A DNA stretch of 37,898 nucleotides, from positions 1 through 37,898 of IMG/VR virus record IMGVR_UViG_3300029448_000077; one strand, given 5' to 3'. A program made the translations under genes and the position numbers. Of the stretch, positions 1,851 to 36,341 are shown in pieces (positions within the stretch are counted from its first letter, which is position 1; every line of letters starts with the position of its first letter). The notes beneath the pieces are model-generated. The model did no database searches, was not told where the DNA came from, and saw only the letters and a list, made by a program, of their open reading frames with translations. Source of the DNA: a virus.

Positions 1851-1852
1851 TT

Positions 1853-5198: not shown

Positions 5199-5289
5199 AA
5201 TGCGGTAAAAACATAGGCAAAGCCTTAGTAATTATAGTATAATATTCTGGTTATATTTTAGTGTTTAATTAATTTAAAAAAGTAAAAAA

Positions 5290-16300: not shown

Positions 16301-19189
16301 GATCCAATGACAAGGTTTGCAATAAAAAAAGATACCGTAATTAATACTGAAAGTGGAAATTCAGGAGTTTTAATAGGTAAATTTTATTGCTATGATACAT
16401 ATTTTTACAACTACGTAAACAGTTATGAAGTCAACGCTGTAAATGGAGATCAGTATGTGTCACAGAATAATCAACTTGGAGTATTAAGTACAAGTTTTAC
16501 TAATGGCGCAGGTGATTCAGCTGTTATGGGAGGAGCGGGTGTGGCTGCTAATGGTATTGGTGGTAACTTTAATATTGAAACAAATCCACATACTCCATTT
16601 ACCCAAGGAGGTGTAAGTACAAGATGCACTAGATATCACCATAGTATTGCTGGACTATATAATGCTAAAGAAATAGCAGATGGGGAATTTGTACCACAAG
16701 CATTTTTCTATCCTCATGGCAATACAGGCAACTCAAATCATTACGCAGGACAAAGAGGATTTTCTAATTTTTCATTAGGTTTTAAAGCTGAATTATATAG
16801 TGATAATTCATCTTATACTACAAGATATGTGGCTGGTTCTGTTTCTGATGGAACGCAAAACTCTAACAACCTTATTGTAGACAACACTGGCGATAATAAT
16901 GAGGTTATGACACAGGAGCAAATGATATATGAATCTGTTTCTACACTGCAAAGAGGAACTAGGGGTATATTATTAGCATTGAATGGTGCATCTGCGAATA
17001 ATAACTACGCACCTGCATATCCCCTACCAAACTTAAAAGATCATAGATTTTTCTATCCAAGGGATATAGGAACAATTCTTAGAGCACAAACTTATTGGTG
17101 GTCTAATAACCACAATCCTGTTAGGCAGGGTAGAAAAATACCATACATGGTATATGCAAATATTATTAAAGAAGTGCCAGGTCAGTATGGAGGAAGCAAT
17201 AGAGAAGCGATTGAAGAAACACAATATATATCTTGTGGTAATTTCCACCCTACACGTGGTGATTTAAATTATAATGATACACCTAATCATGTTTCTATAG
17301 TTTTTGGTGGTGATACTTTTACAAGCATGTATAGTCATCAACAAACAAGTGCTATATATGATGATAAAGGTTATGCAAAATGGTTAGTATTCCCAGTAGA
17401 ATCATATGTTAATACGGATATGCGCTCTGGTTTACATTTAGGCGCTGGTAATACAGAAGAAGGATTTAATCCAGATTTTCCACCAGTATCAAATGATTGG
17501 TTTTACAATTTAGTTTTTTCACAAGAAAATAATATTAGAAGATATTTATCTATACGAGAGAACCAATGTGACCAAACAGACTTGCCGTATGAGATTGCAT
17601 ATTCTAGAACAAAAATTTCAGGAGAACAGGCGGATGCATTTAGAATATTTCCAATATTTAATTTTCACAATGTAGAAGCACAGCATGGTCCAATTACATC
17701 TTTAGTAAATCATAATAATGAAATTTACTTTACACAAGAAAATGCATTTGGAAGATTGCTAGTTAATCCAAGAACTTTCTTGCAAGATGAGGGTAGTGGT
17801 ACAGAATTATTTACAGGAACTGGAGAAACTGTAGAAACACACGTGTACAATTCTGTAGAATATGGAACTAGACATATGCATAGTGTTGTGTCTAGCGATA
17901 AGCATTATTACTTTGTAGATGTAAACAAAAGTAAAATTATACAGTTTACAGGAACAGATGTTAATGTATTGAGTGATGATAAAGGAGTAAGAGATGCTAT
18001 TAATAATATAACAAAATATACTTTAAAAACTTTTGATAGGTACAATAGAGCCGCTAGAGTTCCTTTATGCGATATGCCTTTGTATTTTATAGGTATACAT
18101 GGAGTGTATGATTATAAACACAAAGAGTTAATTTATACATTTGCTAATAGAGTAAGAGCAGATAAACTTGATAGTTTTAATCATCCTGTTGGGGAAAACG
18201 TTAGTCAAGAGTTTTTAGCAACTGATGATTTACAAGATCCATTATATTTTTACGAAGTTTCAGATAATGATTTTGTAGCTAATCCAGAATTATATATAAC
18301 ATCTAAAACTATAGCGTATAATGAAGAGTTAGATAGCTTTACTTCATATTACTCTGCTATACCATCACAGTGGATAAAACATCAGGATAGAATATATACG
18401 CCAGGTAACAGGCTTCCGTTTTTAGCGCAACGTTTTTATACTAATGAAAATGTGTTACAAAATTATCAATTTGGTATTAATAGTTTTAATAATTCACAAC
18501 AAGCTGTTGGTCAACCTATAAATGGTATATATAACTTTAATCATGAAGGTAATGAAAATTATAATTATAGTACACTTGAATTAATAGAGGGTGGTTTAGA
18601 GTTATGGGAGTGGAAAGCTAATGATAAAAGAGCATATTTTTTTGGTGATATTCCTATAACAGATTCTTACGTTGTAAGTTCTGGTGGGCAACCAAACTAT
18701 GATTTTATAACAAATACGCCATTATTAGATAAAATTACATCAAGGTCTATGTTGGAAATAGTTTCAGCAGAAGTGCCTAATGAAAATAAAAAGTTTGATA
18801 ATGCACAGATAGTATCAGATTACGATTTTAATTTTATTGATACAGCTGCAAATGGTGACCATGAATCAGATATGGCTGTTGCAATATTTAAAACTGATCA
18901 GGTAGGTATTGGGGCAGCATTAAATTCGCAAACACCAAATATTACATATTTACACAATCCTTCTGTTGATGTAACTAAAAGAGATTTTGCAAAATACAGA
19001 GAAGGTATTTTGAGATTTCCATTACGAGATTTTAATAATAATATTTATAGTATAAAAGATATAAATGGACCATCACCTATTAAAGCTAGAATGCATGGTA
19101 CTTACTTAAGGTTAAAGCTAGATACAAAAACTAGGCAAAAATTTAATATCTTTGCAATAACTATAAAATATAGAAAATCATATAACTAA
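13325..19189 (+). CDS. Large stabilisation / tail-nozzle (muzzle) protein
   Basis: A 1954-residue protein. The N-terminal residues 8-31 read FVKGIISDTDPRYQIPGSYR followed by DAMN, the signature of phage proteins related to P22 gp10-like stabilisation proteins and crAss-like nozzle (muzzle) proteins, which close the tail and hold DNA in. The rest is beta-rich with many Tyr/Asn/Gly loops, as expected for a beta-propeller, and has large insertions (about 480-600, 830-1080, 1180-1350). Propeller-like strands recur near FNFHNVEAQHGPITSLVNHN and EIYFTQENAFGRLLVN (about 1440-1480). There is no membrane or signal segment. At 1954 residues it is far longer than P22 gp10 (about 470), so the insertions may carry receptor-facing domains. 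Confidence 0.7.
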   Translation: MSKKSKPTGFVKGIISDTDPRYQIPGSYRDAMNMQIINTDGNTFSIQNIKGNKLTINLASHPKYLLDGTLDPVSQTWAEFTNSNNTALNGPLGITNWFDYENMSFQYMQGHFFGLGQLDAIQGSNPAAWNDTAFYMRAACNIVGHFSFRNQLFLIIVGKFNIIKNGDPINYDSFQTQFLLLDFDSEGQVDKVTDLKVCYDSGAGVGYPNLNMDPNILCRVEGIIENDCLSRVYWTDNKNALRTLNLKGNDLHLLDVDELDISPKAVMQPVNLNSVITGNLPAGAYQYAYKYLTADGGESTVSPFSQIYHVSSTSSQSPKTYFGSPSGTVSGDGLQLLIENADVKFDKILLYVLYYEDLGVPPRVCIAGEKDISGGSLYFDHVILEDEVPNGLEEVLIPSNTWDVCQDIAIKDNILFAANLRQNDTIVGEKEWNVKVLRGALNNPMANRSLTTTDDNVKDYYNDPSVAYDLANTVQAGSYAMYQPLYLGETYNNHRAAHRYIMGGGNTPPDIVDNTIDANGNIIQHLVDQDYPTTSENVLGGQSFEFGANALGGCRLSFINKPKTSDTVSNKGGFMGNSSDNFYFGSSQPIEDLQLEYDDAGNAYEVVSNTFTLGSNKDPQQMSAFRGYQRGETYRFGVLIYDKKGNPGNVLYIGDIQMPTHYDHCIEFDLSGSAYGSVLNNAVKFRTNSYTQDFRISTHGSHPVPAFSVAYDSDSILGNQRYKSFIPNRGQSEGYHFTFDLGVVFEFIIPDHVREKISGYKIVRAERNEIDRTVLQSGLLCQTAAYGKRHANLTPQQQIESGYDTGQPIQPAMIDYCQEENVIEGYDLNLNTRMGLDATIMNRATYISTGTFKWNYDFDTQIQYGGGTSYLENAHAYSRSLYFGSEERGDWLTDNGVHKYRVSTAGDSFVMYSPDSAFGVRPYTFNEGHQLQIVASYKLYDQLRFNDSTYLQNDPNNTGHSYNTYGQALLAGGTYAGAIASPAYDNTSMEVGDPMTRFAIKKDTVINTESGNSGVLIGKFYCYDTYFYNYVNSYEVNAVNGDQYVSQNNQLGVLSTSFTNGAGDSAVMGGAGVAANGIGGNFNIETNPHTPFTQGGVSTRCTRYHHSIAGLYNAKEIADGEFVPQAFFYPHGNTGNSNHYAGQRGFSNFSLGFKAELYSDNSSYTTRYVAGSVSDGTQNSNNLIVDNTGDNNEVMTQEQMIYESVSTLQRGTRGILLALNGASANNNYAPAYPLPNLKDHRFFYPRDIGTILRAQTYWWSNNHNPVRQGRKIPYMVYANIIKEVPGQYGGSNREAIEETQYISCGNFHPTRGDLNYNDTPNHVSIVFGGDTFTSMYSHQQTSAIYDDKGYAKWLVFPVESYVNTDMRSGLHLGAGNTEEGFNPDFPPVSNDWFYNLVFSQENNIRRYLSIRENQCDQTDLPYEIAYSRTKISGEQADAFRIFPIFNFHNVEAQHGPITSLVNHNNEIYFTQENAFGRLLVNPRTFLQDEGSGTELFTGTGETVETHVYNSVEYGTRHMHSVVSSDKHYYFVDVNKSKIIQFTGTDVNVLSDDKGVRDAINNITKYTLKTFDRYNRAARVPLCDMPLYFIGIHGVYDYKHKELIYTFANRVRADKLDSFNHPVGENVSQEFLATDDLQDPLYFYEVSDNDFVANPELYITSKTIAYNEELDSFTSYYSAIPSQWIKHQDRIYTPGNRLPFLAQRFYTNENVLQNYQFGINSFNNSQQAVGQPINGIYNFNHEGNENYNYSTLELIEGGLELWEWKANDKRAYFFGDIPITDSYVVSSGGQPNYDFITNTPLLDKITSRSMLEIVSAEVPNENKKFDNAQIVSDYDFNFIDTAANGDHESDMAVAIFKTDQVGIGAALNSQTPNITYLHNPSVDVTKRDFAKYREGILRFPLRDFNNNIYSIKDINGPSPIKARMHGTYLRLKLDTKTRQKFNIFAITIKYRKSYN
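19147..19154 (+). promoter_or_regulatory. Putative promoter -7 element before the ejection block
   Basis: TATCTTTG lies within the 3' end of the nozzle gene, ending 34 bases before the ATG at 19189. The surrounding 16 bases (19142-19157) are identical to the element at 4108-4123. The -33 element is weak. Confidence 0.45.
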
Positions 19190-20460
19190 TGCCGAGTAGA
19201 AGAGATTATTTAGAATTGTATAGTGACTTAGGAGGTTATATGACAGATAACTTTGGAGAGGCTTATGAGCAATACTATGGCACTCCGCAGGGATCTGCTG
19301 TTGATTATACATCAATGGGTCCCGCTCCAACTGTAGAAGCTTCAAGAGAAGCAGTTAGTCCAGAGTTATTACCTTGGCAGGAAAAAGTTGGTCTTTCTAC
19401 ATTAAGACAAGCTGACACTTTTACAAAACTTAGTACAGGTCTAAGTGCTGCAAAAGGGATTAGTCTTGCTGGTAAAACTTTAGGGCTTGGTAAAGCTAGT
19501 TCATTACTTTCTCTTAGCGGTGCTTTTGGTGCAGGTAGTATACTTGCTGCAGGACCGACTGCAAAAGGCTTTTTTTTAGCTACACAACCTAATTTTATTG
19601 GCCCTCCTACAATGGCGCAAGCAGGGTATGCAACGGGTTTAAAAGCATTAAGCGCACCTGCAAAATCCGCTTTGGCTGGAGCTGGAGTTGCTCTTTTAGG
19701 AACAGGTATAAAAGCAATAGGTGATGATGATGACGCTACCACACTTAATGCAGGAGAAACTATTGGAAGTTTAATGCAAGGAGCTGGTACAGGCGCAGCA
19801 GTGGCTGGTCTTTTAGGAGCTACAGGTCCTGTCGGTTGGATCGCAGGTGGAGCTATTGCATTAATTTCTTCTTTATCTAAGAGAGAAAAAGCTAGAAAGG
19901 CTGCGGAGAAACAGCAAGAAACAGATATTAAGATTGAAGGTATAGATGAGTACAGAAAAAGTGTAGGTGAATATCAAGATAAATTAGTTGCAGAAAGACA
20001 AGCTAGATATTATAGTCAACAAGCAGCTATGTATGATAATGCATATGGAACAGGCGCAATGACTCCTGGTGGCTATGGAATATATTCAGAAGCAAGTTTT
20101 GAAAAGGGTGGTAAAAAAGAATCTTCTGCCGAGTTAACAGGTCAAGAAATAGTTACAACTGCATCTGAGCAAGAAGCTATAGAGAAGTCATTAGTAGAAG
20201 GAAATAAAAAACAAGCAGGGTCTATTATAAAGCAAGCTATTAACAGAGGTGATGTAACACCAGGCCCAGCTGATCACAAAAAAAATCCATTGCCTGTAGA
20301 TGATGAAACAGGAGCTGTGGGTGGCGGTTTGTTTGTAGAAGATGGTTCAGGCGTGTATGATCATGTAAATAGATTTAAAGGTAAGTCTGAAACACAGATG
20401 GGTGATATGGCAAAAAAAGATATAGAAAATAAATGGATACCTAATGGAATGTATAGATAA
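19189..20460 (+). CDS. Probable ejected internal virion protein, glycine-zipper membrane
   Basis: A 423-residue protein. Residues about 75-180 are Gly/Ala/Ser/Leu-rich (for example KSALAGAGVALLGTGIKAIG), and about 198-229 form a strong glycine-zipper hydrophobic segment including AAVAGLLGATGPVGWIAGGA. A basic charged helix (SKREKARKAAEK) follows. This layout is common in phage internal proteins that enter the host envelope with the DNA and form a channel. The C-terminal third is soluble, ending with GGGLFVEDGSGVYDHVNRF. It opens a tightly coupled block of four genes (19189-36341) with TAATG stop-start overlap to the nozzle gene and TAATG to the lysozyme gene. The role is inferred from membrane segments and position. 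Confidence 0.55.
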   Translation: MPSRRDYLELYSDLGGYMTDNFGEAYEQYYGTPQGSAVDYTSMGPAPTVEASREAVSPELLPWQEKVGLSTLRQADTFTKLSTGLSAAKGISLAGKTLGLGKASSLLSLSGAFGAGSILAAGPTAKGFFLATQPNFIGPPTMAQAGYATGLKALSAPAKSALAGAGVALLGTGIKAIGDDDDATTLNAGETIGSLMQGAGTGAAVAGLLGATGPVGWIAGGAIALISSLSKREKARKAAEKQQETDIKIEGIDEYRKSVGEYQDKLVAERQARYYSQQAAMYDNAYGTGAMTPGGYGIYSEASFEKGGKKESSAELTGQEIVTTASEQEAIEKSLVEGNKKQAGSIIKQAINRGDVTPGPADHKKNPLPVDDETGAVGGGLFVEDGSGVYDHVNRFKGKSETQMGDMAKKDIENKWIPNGMYR

Positions 20461-22349
20461 TGGCAAAACCAGGAAAAAATAAAATATCAGTAAGAGAAAT
20501 ATATAAGTATTTAATGACTTTTCCTGGAATGACTAATAATAAAGCTGTTGGTATTTTAGGTAATATAAAAGCTGAGTCTAGTTTTTATGCTGATGCTGTT
20601 GAAATGGGAGATGTAAAAAATAAAGGTCTTGGATTATTCCAATACACATTTCCCGAAAGAAAAGAAGCATATAAAAAACAAGTCCCTGATTGGAAAACAA
20701 ATTGGAAAGGTCAGATAGATTTTGCAATGCAGGAAGAAGAAATGAAAAAGTATTTAGCTAAAAACTATGATGACCCAGCTGAAGCGACAGAATCATTTAT
20801 GCTGACATTTGAAAAGCCAAAAGATCAATCAGAGGAGGCTATTGAAGAAAGAGTATCAGGTATAAGAAATATTTATTTAGGAAGCGCTAAGGGTAAAAGA
20901 AATACTATAGTAAAACAAGTAGAAGACGCACAGAAAACATATAGTGCTACTCGTAAGCCTGCAGATCTTAGTAAATTAAATACATTAAAAAATAAATTAA
21001 AAGCATTTGACGAAGGAGAAGAAAATAGATTAGAGGCAGACTTAGTTAAACAAAATAAAAACAAGTTAAATAATCTCCTAGCTACTGAAACAAATTTAAG
21101 AGAGGAATTAAAAACAATACAAAACAATCCTTTAGATTATACTCAAAAACAAATTGATGATGTACAAAAGAAGATAGATTTAGCTGCTATTAATATATCT
21201 GAAATACAAAATTCAGAATTTGACAAAGAAACAAATTCATATAAAATAGGTTCAGGAGTTAGGCCTACAGGTCCTTTTGGTTATAGTAAAAGCCAGATAG
21301 GAGATATGGATTTTTCAAGTGTTTTAGAGCCTCCTAAAGAAGAGGTAGTTAAAGCTGAAGGTGATACAGGGGAAACTCCATTTATGATACCTGAAATAGA
21401 TATTGTAGAAAAGAGAATAAAGAAAAACGTAGAAAGTGACGCAGGAGTTGATGAAGGTGGTGATGCAAAAGATGGTGAGCAAATAGATTTTAACTTTGAG
21501 CAAGGACAAGGTTCTAAAAAAATGCCACGAATGACTGGCGACAAAGTGTTTAATTTATTAGGAGGTGTTTCAACACTTGCGGCTGCGTTGTTCGCAAAGA
21601 AAGCTTTAGGTGAAACAATGAAGGATATAGACCTTCCTGCTATGCCAGAGCTTTCTGAGGCATTTAAAAGACATTTCTATGAATCTGAACAATTAGCTAA
21701 GACTGGACTAACAGTAGCAGAAGAAAGACTTGCTAGAAAATCTATAGACGCTGCGTATGATCAAGGTGTAGATAATTTAGTTAGAGGTACTAGTGGAGAT
21801 AGAGCTAGATTTTTAGCTGGATCAGGATTGTTAGATGCTAGAAGAGCTAGTGCTTTATTACAAGTGGCAGCAATGGATGATGATGCTAAAAGAAAAAATA
21901 GAGAAAACTTTACAAGACTTTTAGATTTTAAAGAGAATTACGAAAAAAACATATCTTTGCAAGAACGCAACGAAAAAATACAGGGACAGTTGGCAAAAAA
22001 AGAATCTTACGCAAAGCTTGGTAATGCTGCTTTACAGCAGGTTGTAAGCGGTTTAGAAAGTATAGCTGCAAACAAACAATGGAATGATTACATGAAGTTT
22101 CAGTATCATAATATGGGATATGATATGGATGAAACATATACGCCATCTATATTTGAAAGAGCTAAAAATATTACAAAAGGCATAGGTCAAGGATTTCAAA
22201 AGGCGTTTGCTACAAAAGAAGGCGGCACTGATGTGGGTAATTTCTTTAGAAGCTTTAAGCCAGCATCAACAAACACTTCAACACCAACAATCAATAATCA
22301 AGATGATATAATAGGTTTTGGTGATTTTGAACAACAAGATATGGTATAA
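20460..22349 (+). CDS. Internal virion protein with N-terminal phage lysozyme domain
   Basis: A 629-residue protein that probably cuts peptidoglycan during DNA entry. Residues 10-90 match the phage tail lysozyme family (Phage_lysozyme2-like): NNKAVGILGNIKAESSF (26-42) with the likely catalytic Glu39, then GLGLFQYTFPERKEAY (56-71). Residues about 140-245 are charged coiled coil. An acidic linker (290-350) leads to a short hydrophobic segment, VFNLLGGVSTLAAALFAKKA (about 363-382). The C-terminal 240 residues are helical with VAEERLARKSIDAAYDQGVD. The fusion of wall-cutting enzyme to an ejection-type body resembles in logic the T7 gp16 arrangement. It overlaps its neighbours by one base on both sides (TAATG). 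Confidence 0.72.
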   Translation: MAKPGKNKISVREIYKYLMTFPGMTNNKAVGILGNIKAESSFYADAVEMGDVKNKGLGLFQYTFPERKEAYKKQVPDWKTNWKGQIDFAMQEEEMKKYLAKNYDDPAEATESFMLTFEKPKDQSEEAIEERVSGIRNIYLGSAKGKRNTIVKQVEDAQKTYSATRKPADLSKLNTLKNKLKAFDEGEENRLEADLVKQNKNKLNNLLATETNLREELKTIQNNPLDYTQKQIDDVQKKIDLAAINISEIQNSEFDKETNSYKIGSGVRPTGPFGYSKSQIGDMDFSSVLEPPKEEVVKAEGDTGETPFMIPEIDIVEKRIKKNVESDAGVDEGGDAKDGEQIDFNFEQGQGSKKMPRMTGDKVFNLLGGVSTLAAALFAKKALGETMKDIDLPAMPELSEAFKRHFYESEQLAKTGLTVAEERLARKSIDAAYDQGVDNLVRGTSGDRARFLAGSGLLDARRASALLQVAAMDDDAKRKNRENFTRLLDFKENYEKNISLQERNEKIQGQLAKKESYAKLGNAALQQVVSGLESIAANKQWNDYMKFQYHNMGYDMDETYTPSIFERAKNITKGIGQGFQKAFATKEGGTDVGNFFRSFKPASTNTSTPTINNQDDIIGFGDFEQQDMV

Positions 22350-24422: not shown

Positions 24423-27400
24423 ATGGGTATAGATTTAAGTAAAATATCAGGACAAGCAGCAGGCATTCCTGCGACACCTCAACAAGGTATTAATATTTAT
24501 GATCAAGGAATGACACAAGATCAAAATATTGATGTACAAAAAAATCTTGAAATACAACAAGGCGAACAAAACCTTGAGGCGCAAACAATGCTTGATCAAC
24601 AACAACAAAAAGATGTTATAGGTAGAGAGCAGCAATTTCAAGATAATTTATTAAAGCTACAGGGCTTAAATTATTCAAAAGAAGCATTAGGTGTAAAACC
24701 AAGTGATATTGCTCGTGGTGAAGGAGAAAGATTAGCTAATAGTTTATATTCAGGTGTTGGACAAGTGATAGGTCAAGTGGGTGATGCTTTTACGTTTTTA
24801 CAATCTATGACTCCTGGTTCTAAGTATTGGTTACCTTTTAATGATCCTATAGGTAATTACTTTAGAGAAGCAGGAGAGGGTATGATGAAGGATTATAAAA
24901 ATACTTACATACCTTCAGAAATAGAAGATTTTAGTTGGAACTCTTTAGCAAATCCTACGTTTTGGACAGGAGAAGTTGCACAACAATTACCCAATTGGCT
25001 TTCAATGTTAGTTCCTGGTTATGCTGGATCTGGTATGGCTAAGAATGTTATTTTAAGAATGGGTAAATCTAGAATGCTTAAAGGTGGCTTAGGATCAGCA
25101 GGCACAGGTGTTCTTATTGAAAAAGGTAAATTAGCAGGACAAGTATTAAGAAAAACAAAAGGTAAGTCTTTATTGGGCACAAGTTCTTTATTTACTAAAG
25201 TTGCAAAAAAAGGAACTAAAGGATATAAGGTAGATGATTTAATGTTGAGTGATGGCATTGGTAAAACTTATGCATCTTTAGTGGGAGCTGGTATAGGTAC
25301 TACAGCTGTGGATGGGGCAATGATTTCTGGTCAAACATACAACTCTGTATTAGCAGAAACTGGTGATGCTGATGCTGCTTCTAAAGCAGCGGCATATACA
25401 TTTTTAGATAATTCAAAATGGTTAGCTGTTAATAGTTTGTCTTGGGGTATGACGTTTGGCTCTTTGCCAGGTAGTGCTGCACAAAGAATATTAAATAGAG
25501 GGCTTATATCTGGAGCACAATCTTTTGCTGCAAAAGCAACAAACTTTAGTTTTAAAGCTATTAAAAATATAGTGCCAAGAGCATCATTTGAAGCTGTAGA
25601 AGAAATGTATCAAGAGTCATATCAAGACTGGGTACAGAAAAAACAAATGTTTAGAGCAAAGGGAGAAAAATGGGACTATGATGATAGTTTTGATGGGTAC
25701 CTACGTTACTTTGATAGTGCAGAAAATCAAAGAACTAAAATGGTTTCTTTTGCAACAGGTTTGTTTGGTGGTACATTTGCTGGTAGTTTAAATACTATGG
25801 CTTCTAGACAATCAGCTTTAGACCAACAGCAAGAATTGTTTGAAAAATTATATAAAGAAATAAATGGAACAGATCAAGCAGAAAGATTAATGGCAATAGA
25901 TTCTATTGTGCAATCTTCTGTTGAGAATGAAGAAACGTCTAGTTTACTTGGCTTTATAGCAGAACTAGAAAAAGACGGAAAGATTTCTCCAGAGTTAAAA
26001 AGTCTGTATAACGAGGTTATAGAAAACTACCAAAATATATATGATAGAGTACCAGATTTTCTTAAACAAATAAGTCCAGAGGGTGCTGGCATATACTACA
26101 ATAATCTTACGCAGGTAGAAAGAAACAAACAAGCTATTAAAGAAGTTGAAGAAAACTTTGAGAGAAACTCTGAAAATGCTAAACAGCAATATGGAGGTAA
26201 AAAAGCTGAACAGCTTATCAAAGAATATAGGGAGCAAGCAGATACAGAGATAGCTCAAATAAATACAGAAATAGAAAATATAGCAGAAAAGAATCTACAG
26301 ATTGAAAGAACTATATTATCTAAAAACAAAAACTATAAAGCTGGTACTAGAGTTACTCAGGATGGTAAACTTACTACAGAAAAGAAACCAGGCACTAAAG
26401 CTAAAACAGGTTTTGTAGGTAGAACTTTAACAGAAAAAGAAAGAGATACTATATTACGTAAACCTGAAGAAGAAAGAACTGAACAAGAAAAAGAACAGTT
26501 ATCATTAGCAGAACGTGTTGGTTATGGTATAGGATACACTGCTGCAGCCGCAAAAAAGGCAGGTAAGGGTGTAGTCAGATTTGCTAGAAAAGAACCTAGA
26601 ATAGCAGGAGGCGCTGCAGTTGGTGCAGGTATAGGTGCTGCTATAGGAGGACCAGTAGGTGCTGTATTAGGTGGTGCTGCAGGAGCAGGTATAGCGGCTC
26701 TTACAGGACAACAGCAGACTGGTGCAGAAATAGAAGAAGTAAAAGAAGAAGCAAAGCAAGAGGTTCAAGAAGAAACTAAACCAAAGGTAGAAGTTACAGA
26801 GCAGTATGCAGAAAAATATGCTGATCTTAGAAAGCGTAAAGAAGTATTAGATGATAAGTCAAGAAGGTCTAAAAAAGAAGACAAGGAGCTAGCAGAAATA
26901 AATGCAGAGTTACAGAACTATGATGAGTCAGCAATTGTAGATAAAATTGTAGAAGAAGAAAAGGCTGGTAAAAAGTTATCAGCATCATATAAGGCGGCTA
27001 AAAATTATCTAGGTGATAAAGTAAAAAAAAAAGAACCGCCAGTCGTAAAAAAGAAAGTTAAGCCTGTAAATCCTACTTCATCTGAACCACAAGAAGAGGA
27101 GCGTAAAGCTAAATTATCACAAACAGAATTATACGAATTACCTGCAGATGAGCAGGCAGTTATTGCTAAGCTATCATTATCTTGGGATAAAAAATTACCT
27201 AAGGGCGCATACATAGCAATGATGTCTGAGCTTACTGCAAAACAAAAGAATGCTGCTGCATTTAATATAGGTGGCGCTATGTTTGTTAGACCAAACGCTA
27301 TATTCCAAGAAGCTTTTATACATGAATATGCGCACATATATAAAAGAATATATAAAGACTTACCATTACTTAAGGCATTTGATAGAGAGCTTATAGCTAA

Positions 27401-30400
27401 CAAGTCTTTATGGCTTAATGTACAGGCCATGTATCCTGAAATTGTTAAGTATAAGTTTTATGGTAAAGATGTTGAGATACAAAAAATACTTAGACGTATA
27501 AATCAACAAAAGAATCACAAGAGAAGTATATTTAGAAATCCTAAAACACCAGAGCTACAATCTTTAGTATTTAAAGCTGAAGAGATGTATGATAAGTTTA
27601 ATAGTGGTATGTATCTTAACTCTGAAGGTCAAAGATTACTTCGTGATGATTACAGAGATTTTATGGATGCATTAGATGCTGCTGGCTATAAGAAGACGGC
27701 TGATGCAAAGCAAGACGCACTATTAGAGGAAGCCTTTGCAACATACATAGCTAACCCAAGAGATGCAAAGTCAAGGGCTAGGGCAAGAGAAATTTTTGAT
27801 GATTTATTTATTAATAAGAAAGAAGTAGATAAAAGAAATAATATTGCTAAAAGATTTTGGAATGTTATAGGAGGATGGGGTAAGACTAATAAAAAAGACA
27901 TACAAGAACTTACACAAACCAGCAATCCTAATTTTGCTGACCTTACATTAGATCAGTTAAGAGATGAGATGGTAAATCAGCAAATGGGTATTAATGATCC
28001 AACTGCAGAGTTAGTATCTACTATTAATGAGATAAGAGAGTTTAAAATGCCAGACGCTATATCTAATCACGAAGATAGAATAGAGCGTTTACGTAATGAA
28101 GTAGAAAAAACTAAAAACAGGTCTAGAAAGGCAAAGTTACAGAAACGTTTAGATAAAGCAGAAAAATCATTAGAGGCAATGAGAGTTGCTGCAGAGTCAG
28201 AGGGTGTAACTATAGAAAGTTTAAAAGATAGTGGTGAAAGATTATCTGTTAAGGTAGCAGAAGTATATAAAGGTGTTATGTCATCTATAGAAGATGAGTT
28301 AAAACAAAAAAGAAGCACAATTATAAAAACACTTCTAACGGCAGATAATAAAGAAGAAGCTCTAAATATAATAGCAAGAAACTTAATACAGGACAACGCT
28401 TCTAAGACAGGCGTATATCACGATGTTATACAATACATGAAGCATAGTGATAATGAAGCTAGAATGATTGAGAACGTTAGAACGCTTATACAGATAAAAG
28501 TATTGGCTAATTCTAAACAATCAAATAAAATCATAAACGACATACTAAATGAGTCTGTAAGTTTAGAGGTAAAAAGACTTAAGAATAAGTTGGGGGAAAC
28601 AGAGTTTGAAGAAACAAGAGAAGTGCTGGTAGAAATGTTCCAAAACATAGAAGATCAGTTAAGAGAAAACTCTGTAGAGGGCGCTATAACTGTGCAGGAA
28701 TCAACTAACGTACTGAACAAGAATCACGACTTATTTACTGATTCTATATCTAAATTTGTAAAGCAATTTGTAAATGAATTGTATACTGGTAATATAGCAG
28801 AAGGTAGACAGCTTAGAGAGTTATATAAAGATAGCAAGACACCTTATATGAAAACCATAGGTAAAAGAGTCTTTATGGATTTATATAAGTTTTCAAATAT
28901 ATATAACAAAGACTTTGGTGCTTTTATATCTGAAATTAGAAGTGCAGAAAACACACATCCAGAAACGCAAGTGTTTGTAAGATGGATGGATAAAAAGTTT
29001 AGTGTGGCAGGTGGTAACTTATTTAATGTAGCACACAGCAATAAAATGCTATACTATATATATAAGTCATATAAAAATAAAATACACGAAAGAATATTTA
29101 GTACAGCAGTAGATACACAAACGCCTACAGCTTTATCTGACTTCCAATTGTTTAATGATGACAATATGGCTTTTGAAGAGGCTGGTCTTATTGATGCTGT
29201 AATGTCTTCTGTAAATGAGTTATACAATAAGAACTCTAAGTATTACGATAGAGGCACTAACCTTAGAAATCAAATAACAAATAAAGCAGAATCAATTAGG
29301 ACTAATCTTAAGAATGGTGTAAGACAAGATGAAGAGATAGTAGACTTTATGAAAACTTTCTTTTCTTCATTCCCGCATGGTTATGTTACATTTGAGTATT
29401 TAATGCAGAATGGTGTTACACAAAACAATAAGAAGTTTACGCTAGCAGAATTCTTTGAGGCTAACTACAACAAGGTGTTTACTAAGAAAGGTGTAAATCC
29501 AGAAATATTTAGACCAGCTATAACGCAAGCTATGGAGTATTCTAGATTTGACAATTACTTGACTGTTGTAGATAATCCAGAAGGCAATCCTACAAACACT
29601 ATGAATACTACTAGCTATATTCATAAAAAGAACAAAAGGTTAAATGATTTGTTCTACAAGATGGAGGATGAGAGTATTGAGAGTTATGAACAACGAATTG
29701 TTGATAACATTAAAGAACAGATATATACAAAGGGCAAGAAGCAGTATACTAATGAGTTTTTACCTATTAAGTTATTTAAGGACAAAGACGGTAATACTAC
29801 TTATGAGTTTGTTCCTAATACTATTAAGTTTAGAGGTGGTGTGTTAGATGTACATAGAAAAGCAGGGCTTAATTATGTAAGACTAAATAGCGCAGAGTTA
29901 CAGGTGTCTGATTTGACAGACTTTGTAAAAGCATTTAATACACCAGATACTAGATCTGCAGATGGTAGGTTGCAAAAAGCACAATACTATCAACCAATAG
30001 TAGTTGCTGCAGAAAAAACTAGACAATACTATATACTAGCCCCTGTGTTAAGAGGTAGAGATTCTGATAAGGCTAGAGGTTATTTATCACAGATAGCTGC
30101 GGAAACATATAGAGATGGTAGCTCTATTATACCTATACTTAACAAAACAGGTAGTTTTAATAATAGCGTTATCAATCAAGAGATAGAAGCTATTAAAGAT
30201 CATATGTCTAATAATATACACTTGTATAAAAACAATATTGACTTTAGACAGTTTGTAGATAATAAAGGTCGTTTAATAGATAGCAAGCTTGACTCTATGT
30301 TAAGAAGCTATGTTATAAGTCATGCGTTAAACAAAGCGCAAGCACAAATGATATTTGCACCACACTCTATATATAAGTCAGAAAACGATTATACAAAACG

Positions 30401-33400
30401 TGCCACAGGTATTATAGCTAGGCATATATCTTTAGACAAAGATGTAGAAAGCATTGTACTTGATAACGTTTACCAAATGGAAGATGGTAGTTTTATAAAT
30501 GAAAAAGAATACTTACAGCTACCAGAAGAACAGCAGACAGGACAGTTAATGACTGATGCGTCTTCATTTATTACGGAAGATACATCGCAAATGTTACAGG
30601 AGGAATACGGTCTTACGTTTATGCGTAATGATAGAGAAGCTTCTAAGCATTGGAAAGGTGTATACTTTGGACAAGACCTACGAGATAAAGGTAATCGTTT
30701 AGAAAACGAGTTAGGTAGAAAAGGTATTTATCTTAAATCAAATTGGTTTGTTATTACCAATGGAATGCGTGATCCAGAAAGCCCTACCTATAATCCATAC
30801 TTTGCACGCGTAGCGGAGTTAATGGAAAGACGTGAAGCGTTTATTAGACAAAACAATCCTGATGCTAATTTTATTACAATAGCTTCTAACAAAAAGGCTG
30901 TGCCTACATATGCACTAGAAGACGATGTTACTTTAGATGAGCAGGGTAATATAAATTGGTATCATTCTGTTGATTTAAGTGAAAGTATAGATGCTGCTTT
31001 TGAAAAGTTAAACTTTGCACAACAGCAGTTAATGGAAGATAATGGTGGCTTTAAAGGGTTAGATGGTACAAACTTTGGTATACAACTTATATTAGATAAA
31101 GACAAGAGTATGTCGCCTGTGCCTACACAGTCTATATCACATCATTTAACCAATGCTACACCAGAAACGCAAGAGATTATTGACGAAGCACATAAAGATT
31201 TTGCTGATGCATTGAATAATCAGTTTAGTTTAAGAGCAGAAGACTATCTTAAAATAAGCGCAGTAGATGATGTACAAGATTTACAAAAACTAAATCAACA
31301 GTTAAAAGACAGAATAGTTTCTGATTGGGCAGGTAGCTTAAAAGCAAACCTATCACAGTACGCATCTGCATACTTCCCTATGATAAACTATATGCGTAAC
31401 TCTATATTAAATAAAGATTTGGTGTTGTCGGGAACTAAGATGGTGGCTCCTGGTACTATTGCATTTCAAATGACTGATGTAGGATACAACTTAAAATCTT
31501 ACACAGGATTAAATTTCTTTGTTTCAGAAGATAGTACGTATGACCAGGGCGCAAAGAATAAAATACAGAAAGCAATTGATAAGTATGGCAATATAAATGT
31601 ATCCGAAGTTATTTTGCCAGACAACATGAAAGGAAGATACAGAGTTGGTGATATTGTATTAGGTTCTCGTATACCTTCGCACGGTAAAGCTTCGCAGCCT
31701 GTATTAATTATAAAAGGTTTTCACGATTCTACTGCTGGTAGCGCCATAACACTACCTAGCAAAGTAACTAATGTAATGGGTGCTGACTATGATGGTGATG
31801 CTATTTATGTACAAGCGTACTATACAAAAACAAATCAACCATACCAAGCAGCCTACAATAGGTTCTTTGATAACATTGTAAAATTAAATGGTAGTACACA
31901 ACATGCAGAGGAAGTTAGTAAAGCTATAGATATTGATTCTATTAATAATGATGTAGTTCCTGAGATAGAACAAATACTTAAAGTAGATGAGGCATATAAT
32001 TCATCACAGATGCTACCAATGGGTCATTTAAAAGCATTCCAAGAGAATGTACCGTCAAGAGGTATGATTGGTATTGCTGCTAATATGACTCGTGATATAA
32101 ACTACTTTGCTGCTTTAGATATAGGGTTGAAGTTTAATGTTGCTGTAGAAACATACGATGGACAAAAAATTGTTATGGATGGCTTTGATGATACAAAGAA
32201 TCCAGATACGTGGTTTAATGTTGCACAAGTATTAAATGTTGTTATTGATAACCCAAAACATCAAACAGCAAATAGACTAGGTCTTACTTATAATACTATT
32301 AAACCATATATACAACTGCTTAGAATGGGTGTATCTTTTAAAGATATAGCGTTAATTATGCGTAGTGAGGGTGCAAAGAAGTATAATAAGTATGCTACAG
32401 AAATGTCTGTAATACATAAAGATGAGTCAAAGTATTATAGCGCAGGATACAAAGCTATGTTAGAAATACTAGCTGGCAAAGAGGGCGCGTTAAGACAGGT
32501 AAAAGGTAAAGATGCAAATGATATTATATTAAACAGTAGCGAGTTTAGGAATAACGCTGCATCTGTAACTAGACAGATTAATGATAGATTAAATGTAAAG
32601 CTAGATGGTAGTGGATCATTGTTTATAGATGTAAAAAATGCACTTGAGGGTGGCGACTTATCACAAATAGAAGTAGTAAGATTATTAGAAGCGTTAAACA
32701 AATCAGGTCAAGAGATATTTGATGTAGGCAGAATGATAGGAGCGTATGCTTTAACTGTACAGAATGGATTCCAGGCACAAAAAATTATTGACGATTTTAA
32801 TAACGTTGGTAATCAGCAATCATCTTTTACAAATACTATTGGATTAAGAACTAATCCTGTTATTGTACAAAATGAAAAAGTGCTTAGAGAGATTGTATCG
32901 TTAGATGAAACAACTAACTTACAGTATTCTAATAAATCTAAGCAGCTTAACGAACATCTTGATAAATTAATACAAGACAAGAATTTGTTTTCTAGAAGTG
33001 CCACAAGTGTAAGAAACTTTGTAAAGTATAGAATGTCAAATGAACTATCTATACTTAATGGCATACCTGGTGAAGAAGAGTTGTATCAGATATTAGATGC
33101 AGAGATGTTTGATCAAATGGAGAAGCCAATAGAGGAAAGAAATAAATTCTTTTTAGATGGTATCGTTTTGACAAATGGTAAACTTAGACTTAACAATAAA
33201 ATGTTTGATAGTTTATCACATACATCAGATATAGAGATGATACAACAAGACTTTGCTAAGTTATCTCCATTTATAAAAGAAAGTATAATACAGTTAGATT
33301 TTTTACAAAATGGTTGGTTAAGCTCTAATTCTGTATCACCATTATTTCATCCAGATGTATTTACTAAAAACTATGAAGATGGTGGATTTAATATAAACAC

Positions 33401-36341
33401 AGAGCTTGACAATATGCTATCTACAGGTAGAGAAGAATATACTACTGAAGAGTTAAATCAATTAGGTGCAGACTTTTTAAGTGAATATTCATACTCAGCT
33501 CCTATTGTTAGAGAAAGACCACAAGAAAGAAAAGATGGTGAGTATTTTATTAAAGGCACATACTTTACTAAAGAGCTACAAACTACAGATGAGCAGTTTG
33601 GTACACCACACGTAGTTAAGTATTGGGATAAAAATCAAAAGCAATACTTAGTATTTAAGTATAATCCGAACTCTACCTATTATAGTTTGATTGGTGAAAC
33701 AAAACCATCAGAGCCTGGACAAGAAGAACAACATAATAAAACTGTTGTTAAAAAATCTAGAAAAGATATAAATAGACAAAGAAGAATTAATGATGTGTTT
33801 GGTCCAATTGTTAAGGAAGCTAAGCTTGGGGATGTAGAGGTTGTAATGGAAGATAGAACTCTTGGCGACAAACCGTTAGAAAAACAAGAATACTTAAAGT
33901 TAAAAGGTGTAAACCTTTCTAGGTTGCGTAATAATGCAGCTGCAGAAACATTCTATGACAATCAGTATCAAAGATATGTTGAGGATTGGAGAATAGGAAG
34001 AATAGAATATGAGAAGAATATAATTACACAGGAGTATAAGAACATGACTGATGCACAGCTTATAGAATTATCATTAGATAATAATGGTGCTGATGCATTG
34101 GTTCGTAATGTGCTTAACTATTATTATGACGTAGAGTTAGCTGTAAGGTCGGAAAAACAACAGCTTGACACTATTATGGATGTAGCCAAGAAAAACAATA
34201 TAGACATAACTAATAATGATTTAGGTGTTGTAGAGTCTTGGTTAATTTCTAATAATCTAAAACAAACAAGCGCAGACCTGCAAGGTGTAGTTAACCAAAT
34301 AGAAAAACAAACTAACATGTTTGTTAAAGAATGGAGAGATGCTGCTATTGGTATAAAGCAATTAGCACAAGCAGTAAAACGCGAAAGACTAAGTGGTATG
34401 TCATTTGGTGAAAAAACATCTTTAGCTTTATCTGGTGGTTTAGAAAACTATATATATGCACCTATGATTGTAAGGGTAAGGTTAAACAATGGTAGAACAT
34501 ATTTAAGGTTAAAGTCTATAGAAGAATCTAGAGGACTTACCGACACGCAGAGAGCGTTTTTAACAGCATTTAGATCTACTGTGCAAAGATTCTATCCAAC
34601 GGCAGATGAAACATCTTTACCACACAAAATGATAGGAGGTATAGAAGCTCTTAAAAAGAATGGTATTATGGGATTATATAGACTGTCTGCAGGTTCTAGC
34701 TCTAATATAGGTAATATAAAAGTAAGAGGGGAAAGACCTGACGGCAGAATAGATATACTACCATACAAACAGTGGATAGATATTTATGAAGAAGGCAGAA
34801 GAGGATTTGCAATTGAAGATATACAAAACATTAAACGTTTAGATGAGTTAAGAAAACGTGCTATAAGAGCAGCAAAGTTGGGTAGGCATGATGATGGTGA
34901 AACAATATATTTAAATAAATTTGATAGACAAGCTATGTATGAAGACAGCACATTCTATCAGTTTGTAGACTCTAAAAATGCATCTATGTCAGATATGGGT
35001 TCTATTGATTTAGAAGATATATTTTTAGCATTTACACATGCAGAAATGTTTAAGAAAGGTTCTAGGCTTTCAATTGATCAATACTTAGCTTCTGTACCAG
35101 AAGGTGATCGTGACCTTATTGATTATAACTCATGGGCAAGAGATAATAATATAAATGAGTTTATGGGTATGGAGCAATTAGAGCCGCTTATAGATGGAAC
35201 TATATTGTTAAACAAAGCTAGAGGAAATAAAAATGCTGTAAGATATTTACAAGAAGTTTGGAAAGAAGGATACCTAGGAGGTAAAAAGCAAAAAACATTT
35301 AATAGTTTTTGGGAGTGGATAGTAGATAAGATAGTAAAGCTTACATCGTTTGGTATACTTGGTTTTAATGTGGCTATTGGTTTTGGTAATGTAATAATGG
35401 GTAAGTACCAGGCATTACGATCTAAGGGTGGTAAACAATTTATTAAAGGTGAGGAGAGGTTCTGGAAAGGATGGGTTGGTCAAGACTTTGGTGAAAGAAT
35501 AAATCAATCTGGTAGAGAGAAAAGTTTAGAGGCTGTAGGTAGAAATAAAACAGCAGCCATGTTAAATGAGTTGTTGAAGTTTGAATTCTATCAATGGGAA
35601 AAAGTATCTAGTATATATAAACAAAACTCAATAATGCGTTTAGCGTTTATGCCATTAGACCTGTCAGAAAAATGGATACAAGGTTCAATGTTCCTAGGTA
35701 TGCTAACAGAAAAGCAGTACAATGCGTACGATGTAGATCAAGATGGTAACCTTATTGTTGTGGATGAAGCTAATGCATTATCAGATGCGCAGTTAAGAAT
35801 GTTAATTAACGAAGTTAAAAAACAACAAGGTTTTGGTTACTCTCCAATGGATCAAAGAAGATTACAATTATATTCTTGGGGTAGAGCTTTATTACAGTTT
35901 AAGAGATACTTTATTACTTTGCTTAGAGAGCGTTGGGGTGGTGAGTATATAGATAGGTTTGGTAACCCAGAAATAGGTTCTTATACAGGTAGTATAAAAT
36001 TCTTGCAAGAAGTTATGGAAGGAAAGAAGAAAATGTCTGACTATGAAACATTGCCTAAATACCAAAAGGATGCAATACGTAGACATCTTAATGGTGTGGG
36101 TATATTCTTTATGGGTATTATGTTATTAGGTATAGCTGGTGATGAAGATGATCCATATTCTAAAAAGGTAACAAAAGAAACAAAGAAGTTTTTAAATAAT
36201 CAAAATGCTATGTTTATACCAAACAGGGTACAGTTTATGGCACAGCCACCTGTATATTCTTATTGGAGGACCAAACTTAAGCCTTCTGGTAGAAAGAAAG
36301 ACAAAGAACCACAAAGGGAAGTAGAATATAGAATGAAGTAA
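24423..36341 (+). CDS. Giant virion RNA polymerase with zincin and membrane segments
   Basis: A 3972-residue protein, probably packed in the virion and delivered with the DNA to transcribe early genes, as known for crAss-like phage phi14:2. In order: N-terminal Gln-rich and hydrophobic region (1-460); coiled coil (about 560-640); glycine zipper (729-762); acidic/Lys linker; probable zinc metallopeptidase with HEYAH (967-971) and LLEEAFATY (1100-1108); long charged helices (about 1200-1500); RNA polymerase core (about 2040-2560) with a beta-like barrel (TDASSFIT from 2044; Lys2078 and Lys2105 candidates) and a beta-prime-like barrel with SRIPSHGK (2415-2422), PVL (2426-2428) and DYDGD (2455-2459); helical C-terminal region with hydrophobic segments at 3643-3660 and 3891-3906. 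The Asp triad and its spacing fit an active polymerase. It lies 1 base after its neighbour. Confidence 0.82.
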   Translation: MGIDLSKISGQAAGIPATPQQGINIYDQGMTQDQNIDVQKNLEIQQGEQNLEAQTMLDQQQQKDVIGREQQFQDNLLKLQGLNYSKEALGVKPSDIARGEGERLANSLYSGVGQVIGQVGDAFTFLQSMTPGSKYWLPFNDPIGNYFREAGEGMMKDYKNTYIPSEIEDFSWNSLANPTFWTGEVAQQLPNWLSMLVPGYAGSGMAKNVILRMGKSRMLKGGLGSAGTGVLIEKGKLAGQVLRKTKGKSLLGTSSLFTKVAKKGTKGYKVDDLMLSDGIGKTYASLVGAGIGTTAVDGAMISGQTYNSVLAETGDADAASKAAAYTFLDNSKWLAVNSLSWGMTFGSLPGSAAQRILNRGLISGAQSFAAKATNFSFKAIKNIVPRASFEAVEEMYQESYQDWVQKKQMFRAKGEKWDYDDSFDGYLRYFDSAENQRTKMVSFATGLFGGTFAGSLNTMASRQSALDQQQELFEKLYKEINGTDQAERLMAIDSIVQSSVENEETSSLLGFIAELEKDGKISPELKSLYNEVIENYQNIYDRVPDFLKQISPEGAGIYYNNLTQVERNKQAIKEVEENFERNSENAKQQYGGKKAEQLIKEYREQADTEIAQINTEIENIAEKNLQIERTILSKNKNYKAGTRVTQDGKLTTEKKPGTKAKTGFVGRTLTEKERDTILRKPEEERTEQEKEQLSLAERVGYGIGYTAAAAKKAGKGVVRFARKEPRIAGGAAVGAGIGAAIGGPVGAVLGGAAGAGIAALTGQQQTGAEIEEVKEEAKQEVQEETKPKVEVTEQYAEKYADLRKRKEVLDDKSRRSKKEDKELAEINAELQNYDESAIVDKIVEEEKAGKKLSASYKAAKNYLGDKVKKKEPPVVKKKVKPVNPTSSEPQEEERKAKLSQTELYELPADEQAVIAKLSLSWDKKLPKGAYIAMMSELTAKQKNAAAFNIGGAMFVRPNAIFQEAFIHEYAHIYKRIYKDLPLLKAFDRELIANKSLWLNVQAMYPEIVKYKFYGKDVEIQKILRRINQQKNHKRSIFRNPKTPELQSLVFKAEEMYDKFNSGMYLNSEGQRLLRDDYRDFMDALDAAGYKKTADAKQDALLEEAFATYIANPRDAKSRARAREIFDDLFINKKEVDKRNNIAKRFWNVIGGWGKTNKKDIQELTQTSNPNFADLTLDQLRDEMVNQQMGINDPTAELVSTINEIREFKMPDAISNHEDRIERLRNEVEKTKNRSRKAKLQKRLDKAEKSLEAMRVAAESEGVTIESLKDSGERLSVKVAEVYKGVMSSIEDELKQKRSTIIKTLLTADNKEEALNIIARNLIQDNASKTGVYHDVIQYMKHSDNEARMIENVRTLIQIKVLANSKQSNKIINDILNESVSLEVKRLKNKLGETEFEETREVLVEMFQNIEDQLRENSVEGAITVQESTNVLNKNHDLFTDSISKFVKQFVNELYTGNIAEGRQLRELYKDSKTPYMKTIGKRVFMDLYKFSNIYNKDFGAFISEIRSAENTHPETQVFVRWMDKKFSVAGGNLFNVAHSNKMLYYIYKSYKNKIHERIFSTAVDTQTPTALSDFQLFNDDNMAFEEAGLIDAVMSSVNELYNKNSKYYDRGTNLRNQITNKAESIRTNLKNGVRQDEEIVDFMKTFFSSFPHGYVTFEYLMQNGVTQNNKKFTLAEFFEANYNKVFTKKGVNPEIFRPAITQAMEYSRFDNYLTVVDNPEGNPTNTMNTTSYIHKKNKRLNDLFYKMEDESIESYEQRIVDNIKEQIYTKGKKQYTNEFLPIKLFKDKDGNTTYEFVPNTIKFRGGVLDVHRKAGLNYVRLNSAELQVSDLTDFVKAFNTPDTRSADGRLQKAQYYQPIVVAAEKTRQYYILAPVLRGRDSDKARGYLSQIAAETYRDGSSIIPILNKTGSFNNSVINQEIEAIKDHMSNNIHLYKNNIDFRQFVDNKGRLIDSKLDSMLRSYVISHALNKAQAQMIFAPHSIYKSENDYTKRATGIIARHISLDKDVESIVLDNVYQMEDGSFINEKEYLQLPEEQQTGQLMTDASSFITEDTSQMLQEEYGLTFMRNDREASKHWKGVYFGQDLRDKGNRLENELGRKGIYLKSNWFVITNGMRDPESPTYNPYFARVAELMERREAFIRQNNPDANFITIASNKKAVPTYALEDDVTLDEQGNINWYHSVDLSESIDAAFEKLNFAQQQLMEDNGGFKGLDGTNFGIQLILDKDKSMSPVPTQSISHHLTNATPETQEIIDEAHKDFADALNNQFSLRAEDYLKISAVDDVQDLQKLNQQLKDRIVSDWAGSLKANLSQYASAYFPMINYMRNSILNKDLVLSGTKMVAPGTIAFQMTDVGYNLKSYTGLNFFVSEDSTYDQGAKNKIQKAIDKYGNINVSEVILPDNMKGRYRVGDIVLGSRIPSHGKASQPVLIIKGFHDSTAGSAITLPSKVTNVMGADYDGDAIYVQAYYTKTNQPYQAAYNRFFDNIVKLNGSTQHAEEVSKAIDIDSINNDVVPEIEQILKVDEAYNSSQMLPMGHLKAFQENVPSRGMIGIAANMTRDINYFAALDIGLKFNVAVETYDGQKIVMDGFDDTKNPDTWFNVAQVLNVVIDNPKHQTANRLGLTYNTIKPYIQLLRMGVSFKDIALIMRSEGAKKYNKYATEMSVIHKDESKYYSAGYKAMLEILAGKEGALRQVKGKDANDIILNSSEFRNNAASVTRQINDRLNVKLDGSGSLFIDVKNALEGGDLSQIEVVRLLEALNKSGQEIFDVGRMIGAYALTVQNGFQAQKIIDDFNNVGNQQSSFTNTIGLRTNPVIVQNEKVLREIVSLDETTNLQYSNKSKQLNEHLDKLIQDKNLFSRSATSVRNFVKYRMSNELSILNGIPGEEELYQILDAEMFDQMEKPIEERNKFFLDGIVLTNGKLRLNNKMFDSLSHTSDIEMIQQDFAKLSPFIKESIIQLDFLQNGWLSSNSVSPLFHPDVFTKNYEDGGFNINTELDNMLSTGREEYTTEELNQLGADFLSEYSYSAPIVRERPQERKDGEYFIKGTYFTKELQTTDEQFGTPHVVKYWDKNQKQYLVFKYNPNSTYYSLIGETKPSEPGQEEQHNKTVVKKSRKDINRQRRINDVFGPIVKEAKLGDVEVVMEDRTLGDKPLEKQEYLKLKGVNLSRLRNNAAAETFYDNQYQRYVEDWRIGRIEYEKNIITQEYKNMTDAQLIELSLDNNGADALVRNVLNYYYDVELAVRSEKQQLDTIMDVAKKNNIDITNNDLGVVESWLISNNLKQTSADLQGVVNQIEKQTNMFVKEWRDAAIGIKQLAQAVKRERLSGMSFGEKTSLALSGGLENYIYAPMIVRVRLNNGRTYLRLKSIEESRGLTDTQRAFLTAFRSTVQRFYPTADETSLPHKMIGGIEALKKNGIMGLYRLSAGSSSNIGNIKVRGERPDGRIDILPYKQWIDIYEEGRRGFAIEDIQNIKRLDELRKRAIRAAKLGRHDDGETIYLNKFDRQAMYEDSTFYQFVDSKNASMSDMGSIDLEDIFLAFTHAEMFKKGSRLSIDQYLASVPEGDRDLIDYNSWARDNNINEFMGMEQLEPLIDGTILLNKARGNKNAVRYLQEVWKEGYLGGKKQKTFNSFWEWIVDKIVKLTSFGILGFNVAIGFGNVIMGKYQALRSKGGKQFIKGEERFWKGWVGQDFGERINQSGREKSLEAVGRNKTAAMLNELLKFEFYQWEKVSSIYKQNSIMRLAFMPLDLSEKWIQGSMFLGMLTEKQYNAYDVDQDGNLIVVDEANALSDAQLRMLINEVKKQQGFGYSPMDQRRLQLYSWGRALLQFKRYFITLLRERWGGEYIDRFGNPEIGSYTGSIKFLQEVMEGKKKMSDYETLPKYQKDAIRRHLNGVGIFFMGIMLLGIAGDEDDPYSKKVTKETKKFLNNQNAMFIPNRVQFMAQPPVYSYWRTKLKPSGRKKDKEPQREVEYRMK
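26607..26708 (+). other. Glycine-zipper membrane segment of the giant protein
   Basis: Encodes residues about 729-762, a Gly/Ala-rich segment with GxxxG-type spacing (GAGIGAAIGGPVGAVLGG). Such segments insert in membranes and oligomerise. It lies before the metallopeptidase, so it may anchor or thread the protein through the host envelope. Confidence 0.6.
27200..27760 (+). other. Zincin-like metallopeptidase domain of the giant protein
   Basis: Encodes HEYAH at residues 967-971 (bases 27321-27335), with two His ligands and a catalytic Glu968, preceded by a strand GGAMFVRPNAIFQEAF. A downstream LLEEAFATY (Glu1102 or Glu1103, bases 27720-27746) fits the third ligand of gluzincins. It may cut the giant protein, other virion proteins or host targets; the sequence does not decide between these. 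Confidence 0.6.
30540..32110 (+). other. Two-barrel RNA polymerase core of the giant protein
   Basis: Encodes residues about 2040-2563. DYDGD (2455-2459; bases 31785-31799) matches the metal-binding loop of multi-subunit and two-barrel polymerases. Arg2416, Pro2418 and PVL (2426-2428) sit 30-40 residues before, as in bacterial beta-prime. Upstream TDASSFIT (2044-2051), Lys2078, Lys2105 and MSPVPTQ (2230-2236) fit the beta-like barrel. RGMIGIAANM (2546-2555) follows in the place of the helical region after the metal loop. Confidence 0.75.

Follow-up and report, generated by a model that had tools for sequence, protein, structure and literature searches.

The 3972-residue product of a single open reading frame in the IMG/VR virus record IMGVR_UViG_3300029448_000077 is very probably a single-chain virion RNA polymerase, which a Crassvirales-related phage would package, eject and use to transcribe its early genes. 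This reading builds on computed homology, fold and colinearity with the virion polymerase apparatus of phage phi14:2. While the preliminary description of this DNA covered the polymerase core alone, the outer parts of the protein match the phi14:2 virion proteins encoded next to that polymerase. The window analysed here comprises the whole stretch of 37,898 nucleotides (positions 1 to 37,898 of the parent record, which has 46,587 bases), and the phage is known from metagenome sequence only. All features are listed in Table 1.

Table 1. Features of the window, in order of position (residue numbers refer to the giant protein).
Feature	Position	Strand	Evidence
Terminase large subunit (TerL), 5' end cut by contig	3..1850	+	hhalign phi14:2 g094 99.8%; PHROG 6681
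Portal protein	1853..4099	+	hhalign phi14:2 g093 100%
Major capsid protein (MCP)	5290..6861	+	hhalign phi14:2 g091 91.1%; PHROG 11589
Tail tubular protein	12258..13325	+	hhalign phi14:2 g072 94.2%
Tail stabilisation/muzzle-like protein	13325..19189	+	hhalign phi14:2 g071 99.9%, E 2.6e-35
Phage tail lysozyme domain protein, two genes before giant ORF	20460..22349	+	Pfam PF18013 E 5.4e-18
Giant ORF, putative fused virion RNA polymerase apparatus	24423..36341	+	full-length giant homologues in relatives
N-terminal module, residues 99-587	24717..26183	+	hhalign p-crAss gp45 N-terminus 97.0%, E 1.2e-10; phi14:2 g067
Gly/Ala-rich hydrophobic stretch, residues 731-764	26613..26714	+	one of three hydropathy maxima
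Zincin-like domain, residues 963-1109, H967-E968-x-x-H971 and E1103	27309..27749	+	four residues kept in 49/49 sequences with residues there
Two-barrel RNA polymerase core, residues 1704-2837	29532..32933	+	AlphaFold2 model; 6VR4 match in Foldseek and VIA
First (beta-like, DPBB-B) barrel zone, strand-rich, residues ~2000-2232	30420..31118	+	position in 6VR4 match, model strands; boundaries inferred
Second (beta-prime-like, DPBB-A) barrel region, residues 2339-2464	31437..31814	+	K2339 46/51, R2416 and P2418 51/51
R2416-x-P2418-x-H2420 motif	31668..31682	+	R and P 51/51, H 36/51; aligned with RIP of phi14:2 g066
DYDGD, predicted Mg2+-binding catalytic triad D2455, D2457, D2459	31785..31799	+	aligned with DFDID of phi14:2 g066
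LLN-x-x-x-DN-x-K-x-Q block after barrels, residues 2597-2636	32211..32330	+	N2605 and D2609 49/49 with residues there; aligned with g066 FLNAFVDNAKD
C-terminal module, residues 3611-3911	35253..36155	+	hhalign p-crAss gp44 C-terminus 94.4%, E 8.5e-8; phi14:2 g065

Results

The core is related to the virion polymerase of phi14:2

Membership in the class of the phi14:2 virion RNA polymerase, as proposed in the preliminary description, is borne out by profile comparison. In hhalign, section 1700-3000 of the protein matches phi14:2 g066 (98.9%, E 3e-17) and p-crAss gp44 (98.7%, E 2e-16), and the reversed control reaches 0.9%. Identity to g066 amounts to 12-20%. Searching 50,697 phage records with residues 1667-2959 (tblastn) yields crAss-like phages in nearly all of the matches listed, at 24-36% identity, a few being unannotated faecal phage contigs. 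The best of these matches is cr107_1 (E 4e-7), the 'putative RNAP catalytic subunit' of crAss002 reaches E 2e-6, and several matched features are annotated as RNAP catalytic subunit. Among all PDB sequences, a profile of 49 sequences (A3) has 6vr4_A as its sole significant match (E 1.9e-15). An 8-sequence profile (A1) misses 6VR4, phmmer of the single protein against the PDB gives no match, and Pfam yields nothing useful for the whole 3972-residue protein.

Structure prediction does not contradict the double-psi barrel expected around residue 2455. The AlphaFold2 model of residues 1700-2860, built with A3 (pLDDT 84.2, pTM 0.85), has as its best PDB match by far the phi14:2 virion polymerase 6VR4, with a Foldseek E of 3.0e-25, probability 1.00 and a TM of 0.63 by query length. 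VIA-align 2 superimposes 919 of the 1161 model residues on 6VR4 with a Z of 20.7 and an rmsd of 4.0, the next best structure reaching Z 13.2. In Foldseek, 6VR4 is followed by QDE-1 (E 2.9e-5) and then by P23-45 gp96 (E 5.7e-3), plant RDR2 and P74 gp62. Chains of cellular RNA polymerases match over about 110-220 residues, mostly starting near model residue 640, which corresponds to the second barrel.

The 6VR4 match spans both barrels of the phi14:2 enzyme, and through it the model suggests the barrel assignment given in Table 1. The stretch 30540-32110, to which the core had originally been assigned, is in frame and equals residues 2040-2562, but the resemblance to the polymerase reaches further, since the model matches 6VR4 over about 1704-2837. 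Beyond the barrels, the conserved block at residues 2597-2636 is a candidate for the bridge-helix/trigger-loop region.

Outer modules and gene order follow phi14:2

Three consecutive genes follow the tail genes in phi14:2, namely g067 (1797 aa), g066 (2180 aa, the polymerase) and g065 (1421 aa), and the GenBank entry records all three as annotated from MS/MS proteomics. In hhalign, residues 172-456 of the giant protein match g067 (95.8%, E 7.5e-9), while residues 3633-3920 match g065 (95.3%, E 2.2e-8). Six reversed-sequence runs stay below 1% and non-corresponding section/protein pairs below 12%, with one exception at 36.6%, the N section against the giant ORF of cr50_1, which is a plausible true pair. 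Residues about 880-1700 and 3000-3600 show no such hhalign match to phi14:2 or p-crAss proteins. Since the N- and C-terminal parts match two virion proteins that neighbour g066, the sequence is most simply read as a three-gene fusion, in which g067, g066 and g065 would be joined in one chain in the same order. This chain may have arisen by joining of the three genes, or it may represent an ancestral form that was later divided.

The surrounding genes are arranged as TerL, portal, MCP, tubular, muzzle-like, a 423-aa protein, the tail lysozyme protein, a 690-aa protein and the giant ORF. The TerL, portal, MCP, tubular and stabilisation proteins have phi14:2 homologues in the same order, and the lysozyme-domain product is probably another ejected or tail protein. 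IHF and the signature genes 74/75 in the structural block are a Crassvirales feature (PMC7886860); no ORF of the window matches g073 (IHF) or g074 in profile comparison with the phi14:2 targets alone, both of which are small. Midpoint rooting of a TerL tree places the clade as sister to the named Crassvirales families plus Fipvunavirus FpV4, but long branches render this position uncertain. Within the head gene block, 7949-8641 encodes a putative 2OG-Fe(II) oxygenase (PF13759, E 9.4e-20), which looks recently gained because only one homologue occurs among the fetched loci.

Beyond the window, at about 41087-43333 of the record (L002:13088-15334), lies a gene for a 748-aa protein with many GCTDSTAFNYDPLANTDDGSC-type repeats. 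Its C-terminal stretch resembles a type 9 secretion sorting domain (PF18962, E 1.4e-4, below the cut-off). Together, the repeats and the sorting-like stretch suggest that the host belongs to Bacteroidota and that the phage encodes a secreted or surface protein.

Giant homologues are widespread among relatives

More than 50 relatives in IMG/VR encode similar giant proteins, and the full homologues mostly have 3.5-4.3 thousand residues. A scan of viral_contigs for close relatives with the core alone found none, whereas a search by way of the terminase did. The clade, whose relatives come from IMG/VR, is probably marine. Several relatives are contigs of 65-68 kb that carry DnaB together with the giant gene. 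In one of them (G017:C1), the two ends (1-3000 and 65387-68399) each carry DnaB with its neighbouring genes, the two versions being similar though not identical, and because of this similarity the genome is probably a circle near 65 kb, closed from mixed strains. In G005 the polymerase appears to be split after DxDxD, which we attribute to an assembly gap, with X in the translations at the break. A more distant branch is represented by L165 (IMGVR_UViG_3300030060_006367), which has GSDHDGD instead of GxDLDGD and its best match in the N-terminal part.

Promoters of late and early genes in relatives

No early region is recognised in the 46.6-kb record of the window phage. In four longer relatives, the host-type pattern TTG-N17-25-TAnnTTTG, the Bacteroidota promoter consensus, stands before 5 of 41 genes on the late strand (0.2 expected) and before 1 of 40 on the early strand (0.8 expected). 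The contrast agrees with the preliminary expectation that early promoters differ from the host type, but it is small and sensitive to the simple way in which ORFs were called. Across the four relatives, neither dyad nor k-mer searches gave a convincing shared early promoter. In one genome (L199, G018:C1), five near-identical ACTTWAWAATARMTAAT-like copies (0-1 mismatch) lie within 4285-6327, each shortly before a small early-strand gene, and some come after a hairpin followed by T's. The AT-rich 17-base motif of this genome precedes five consecutive early genes and has 10 matches at <=2 mismatches versus 0.83 expected, an enrichment that is not an independent test because the motif was read off those same sequences. 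We regard the ACTTWAWAATARMTAAT-like motif as a candidate early promoter of this relative; the 17-base motif is absent from the window.

Gene position and promoters bear on whether the enzyme travels in the particle at all. The two-barrel polymerase gp64 of phage P23-45, which could not be detected in virions (PMC10770324), provides a precedent for an unpackaged enzyme that is made in the infected cell for middle or late genes. We give such a role little probability here, given that the gene lies behind the tail genes within the structural block, at the place of the three MS/MS-annotated genes of phi14:2, that the polymerase is fused to homologues of two of these genes, and that late-strand genes of the relatives carry host-type promoters.

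The predicted catalytic motif is conserved

DYDGD is present at residues 2455-2459, as first described, and the distance from R2416 to D2455 is indeed 39 residues. Of the sequence context reported with it, R2416, P2418, H2420 and Pro-Val-Leu (2426-2428) are all found in the protein, but the Pro-Val-Leu is not conserved in relatives. Alignment to phi14:2 g066 places DYDGD on DFDID and SRIPSHGKAS on YRIPNQGQSS.

Across 2000 shuffles of the giant protein, DxDxD occurs 0.88 times on average and is therefore worth nothing by itself; a second copy, DVDQD, lies at 3770. The expectation falls to 0.05 for DxDGD and to 0.0005 per shuffle for R-x-P-x(1-2)-H-x(25-45)-DxDGD. Conservation provides stronger evidence than these statistics. 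All relatives found through the terminase, a search that made no use of the motif, keep GxDxDGD and RxPxHxK (7 distinct sequences aligned to that of the window). DxDGD is kept in 51 of 51 aligned sequences, but this count partly reflects how they were found, as DxDGD formed part of one of the two search patterns.

The same alignment argues against an inactivated polymerase core within a packaged protein that serves ejection or structure. Such decay would fit the low identity to g066 and the fact that much of the protein's length is not polymerase. However, despite a mean column identity of 29% across the family alignment, the three Asp residues, R2416 and P2418 never vary and 46 of 51 sequences have K2339, and relatives found without the motif still keep it. 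Loss of activity thus has very little probability.

That the protein is a tail tape measure with a polymerase attached, as in P23-45 gp96 (a 5002-residue tape measure-polymerase fusion exists in that phage; PMC10770324), has a negligible probability. The match to PHROG 934 (tape measure) at residues 714-845 (E 9e-4) falls on a low-complexity stretch rich in Gly/Ala and Lys/Glu and was discarded for this reason. The structural genes belong to the type found in phi14:2, a crAss-like podovirus, gp96 reaches a Foldseek E of 5.7e-3 versus 3e-25 for 6VR4, and both the N and the C part have their matches among crAss-like proteins.

A zincin-like domain precedes the core

Between the N-terminal module and the polymerase core, the protein carries an HExxH motif with a downstream acidic zinc ligand, E1103. 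The model of residues 963-1109 has confident helices around the motif and no significant PDB fold match in Foldseek or VIA, and in Pfam one of the 48 family members comes near Tox-MPTase2 (E 0.0024). The HExxH motif makes a zinc-protease function likely. In the giant ORF of one relative (L103, G007), the sequence aligned to window positions 27321-27335 reads HEFTGH and is one residue longer, possibly a degenerate or shifted zinc site. N-terminal to the zincin-like domain, the Gly/Ala-rich stretch of residues 731-764 may insert into a membrane, as its hydropathy suggests.

Discussion

From these relationships we infer packaging, ejection, catalysis and the use of early promoters, as well as the roles of the outer modules and of the HExxH domain. 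The chain would be ordered as a g067-like N-terminal module, a zincin-like HExxH domain, a g066-like two-barrel DNA-dependent RNA polymerase core and a g065-like C-terminal module. Most likely, the protein is made late together with the structural proteins and packed in the capsid. At infection it would be expelled through the tail, probably partly unfolded, refold in the host and transcribe the early genes until the host polymerase takes over the late genes, with D2455, D2457 and D2459 predicted to hold the catalytic Mg2+ ions. Virion proteomics of PhicrAss001 detects RNA polymerase-associated proteins, for which the authors propose expulsion through the tail in a partly unfolded state (PMC10172136). 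According to a review of the Crassvirales, the virion polymerase transcribes early and middle genes and the host enzyme late genes (PMC10136315); given the homology to crAss-like systems, the same division of labour is expected here.

Ejection machinery and early polymerase might even be one molecule, in which the N module would aid envelope crossing, the HExxH domain would cut the chain (or a host factor) after entry and thereby release the polymerase, and the attached core, by transcribing, would help to pull in the rest of the genome. We consider this extended version of the packaged, ejected polymerase rather unlikely.

Among crAss-like phages, giant polymerases reaching about 6000 aa and zincin fusions are already known. 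The element that seems new is an apparently complete fusion of all three parts, which is the rule in a large environmental clade not included in the named Crassvirales families. The literature that we searched contains no published description of such a fusion, although one may exist elsewhere. The phi14:2-type virion RNA polymerase is thereby extended beyond these families to the more than 50 IMG/VR relatives, some with contigs of only about 65-68 kb. As the whole apparatus would reside in one chain, one function links three separate virion proteins whose roles are known in part or not at all.

The N4 vRNAP is a T7-type polymerase, unrelated to the two-barrel enzymes. The phages described here offer a compact system for asking why two unrelated types of virion polymerase, two-barrel here and T7-type in N4, adjoin an HExxH domain, and also whether ejection, proteolysis and early transcription are coupled.

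Comparison with known systems

With phi14:2 gp66 (PDB 6VR4), the giant protein shares the overall fold, a single chain that holds both barrels, and a second barrel bearing DxDxD preceded by R-x-P. Both genes also come after the tail genes, and their homologous neighbours are arranged in the same order. In contrast to the single gene of the window, phi14:2 has three, and its metal loop reads DFDID rather than DYDGD. A search of g067 for HExxH found none, whereas the giant protein has this motif.

In p-crAssphage, gp45 is annotated as an RNAP-associated protein fused to a zincin protease and gp44 as an RNAP catalytic subunit fused to an unknown subunit. The N module of the window corresponds to gp45 and the core plus C module to gp44, two chains there and one here. 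The HExxH of gp45 lies near its C-terminus, just before the polymerase gene. The 4774-aa ORF of cr50_1 likewise carries HExxH about 1490 residues before DFDID, compared with 1488 before the metal loop here, but a separate 1386-aa protein follows the giant one. The zincin regions give no significant profile match to one another, so that homology between them is a matter of position only.

P23-45 gp96 is also a giant virion protein with a two-barrel RNA polymerase, for which AT-rich early promoters have been proposed (PMC10770324). Unlike the window core, to which it is a weak structural match, its polymerase lies at the N-terminus, lacks a clamp and is joined to a tape measure. The N4 vRNAP (Schitoviridae) resembles the giant protein in its about 3,500 residues, in being packaged and ejected, and in having an HExxH domain next to the polymerase (PMC12633501). 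There the domain stands after the polymerase and here before it, and the likeness is at most convergent. QDE-1 and plant RDR2 are single-chain two-barrel enzymes as well and form the second tier of structural matches (Foldseek E 2.9e-5, Z about 11-12), but they are cellular RNA-interference enzymes without virion modules.
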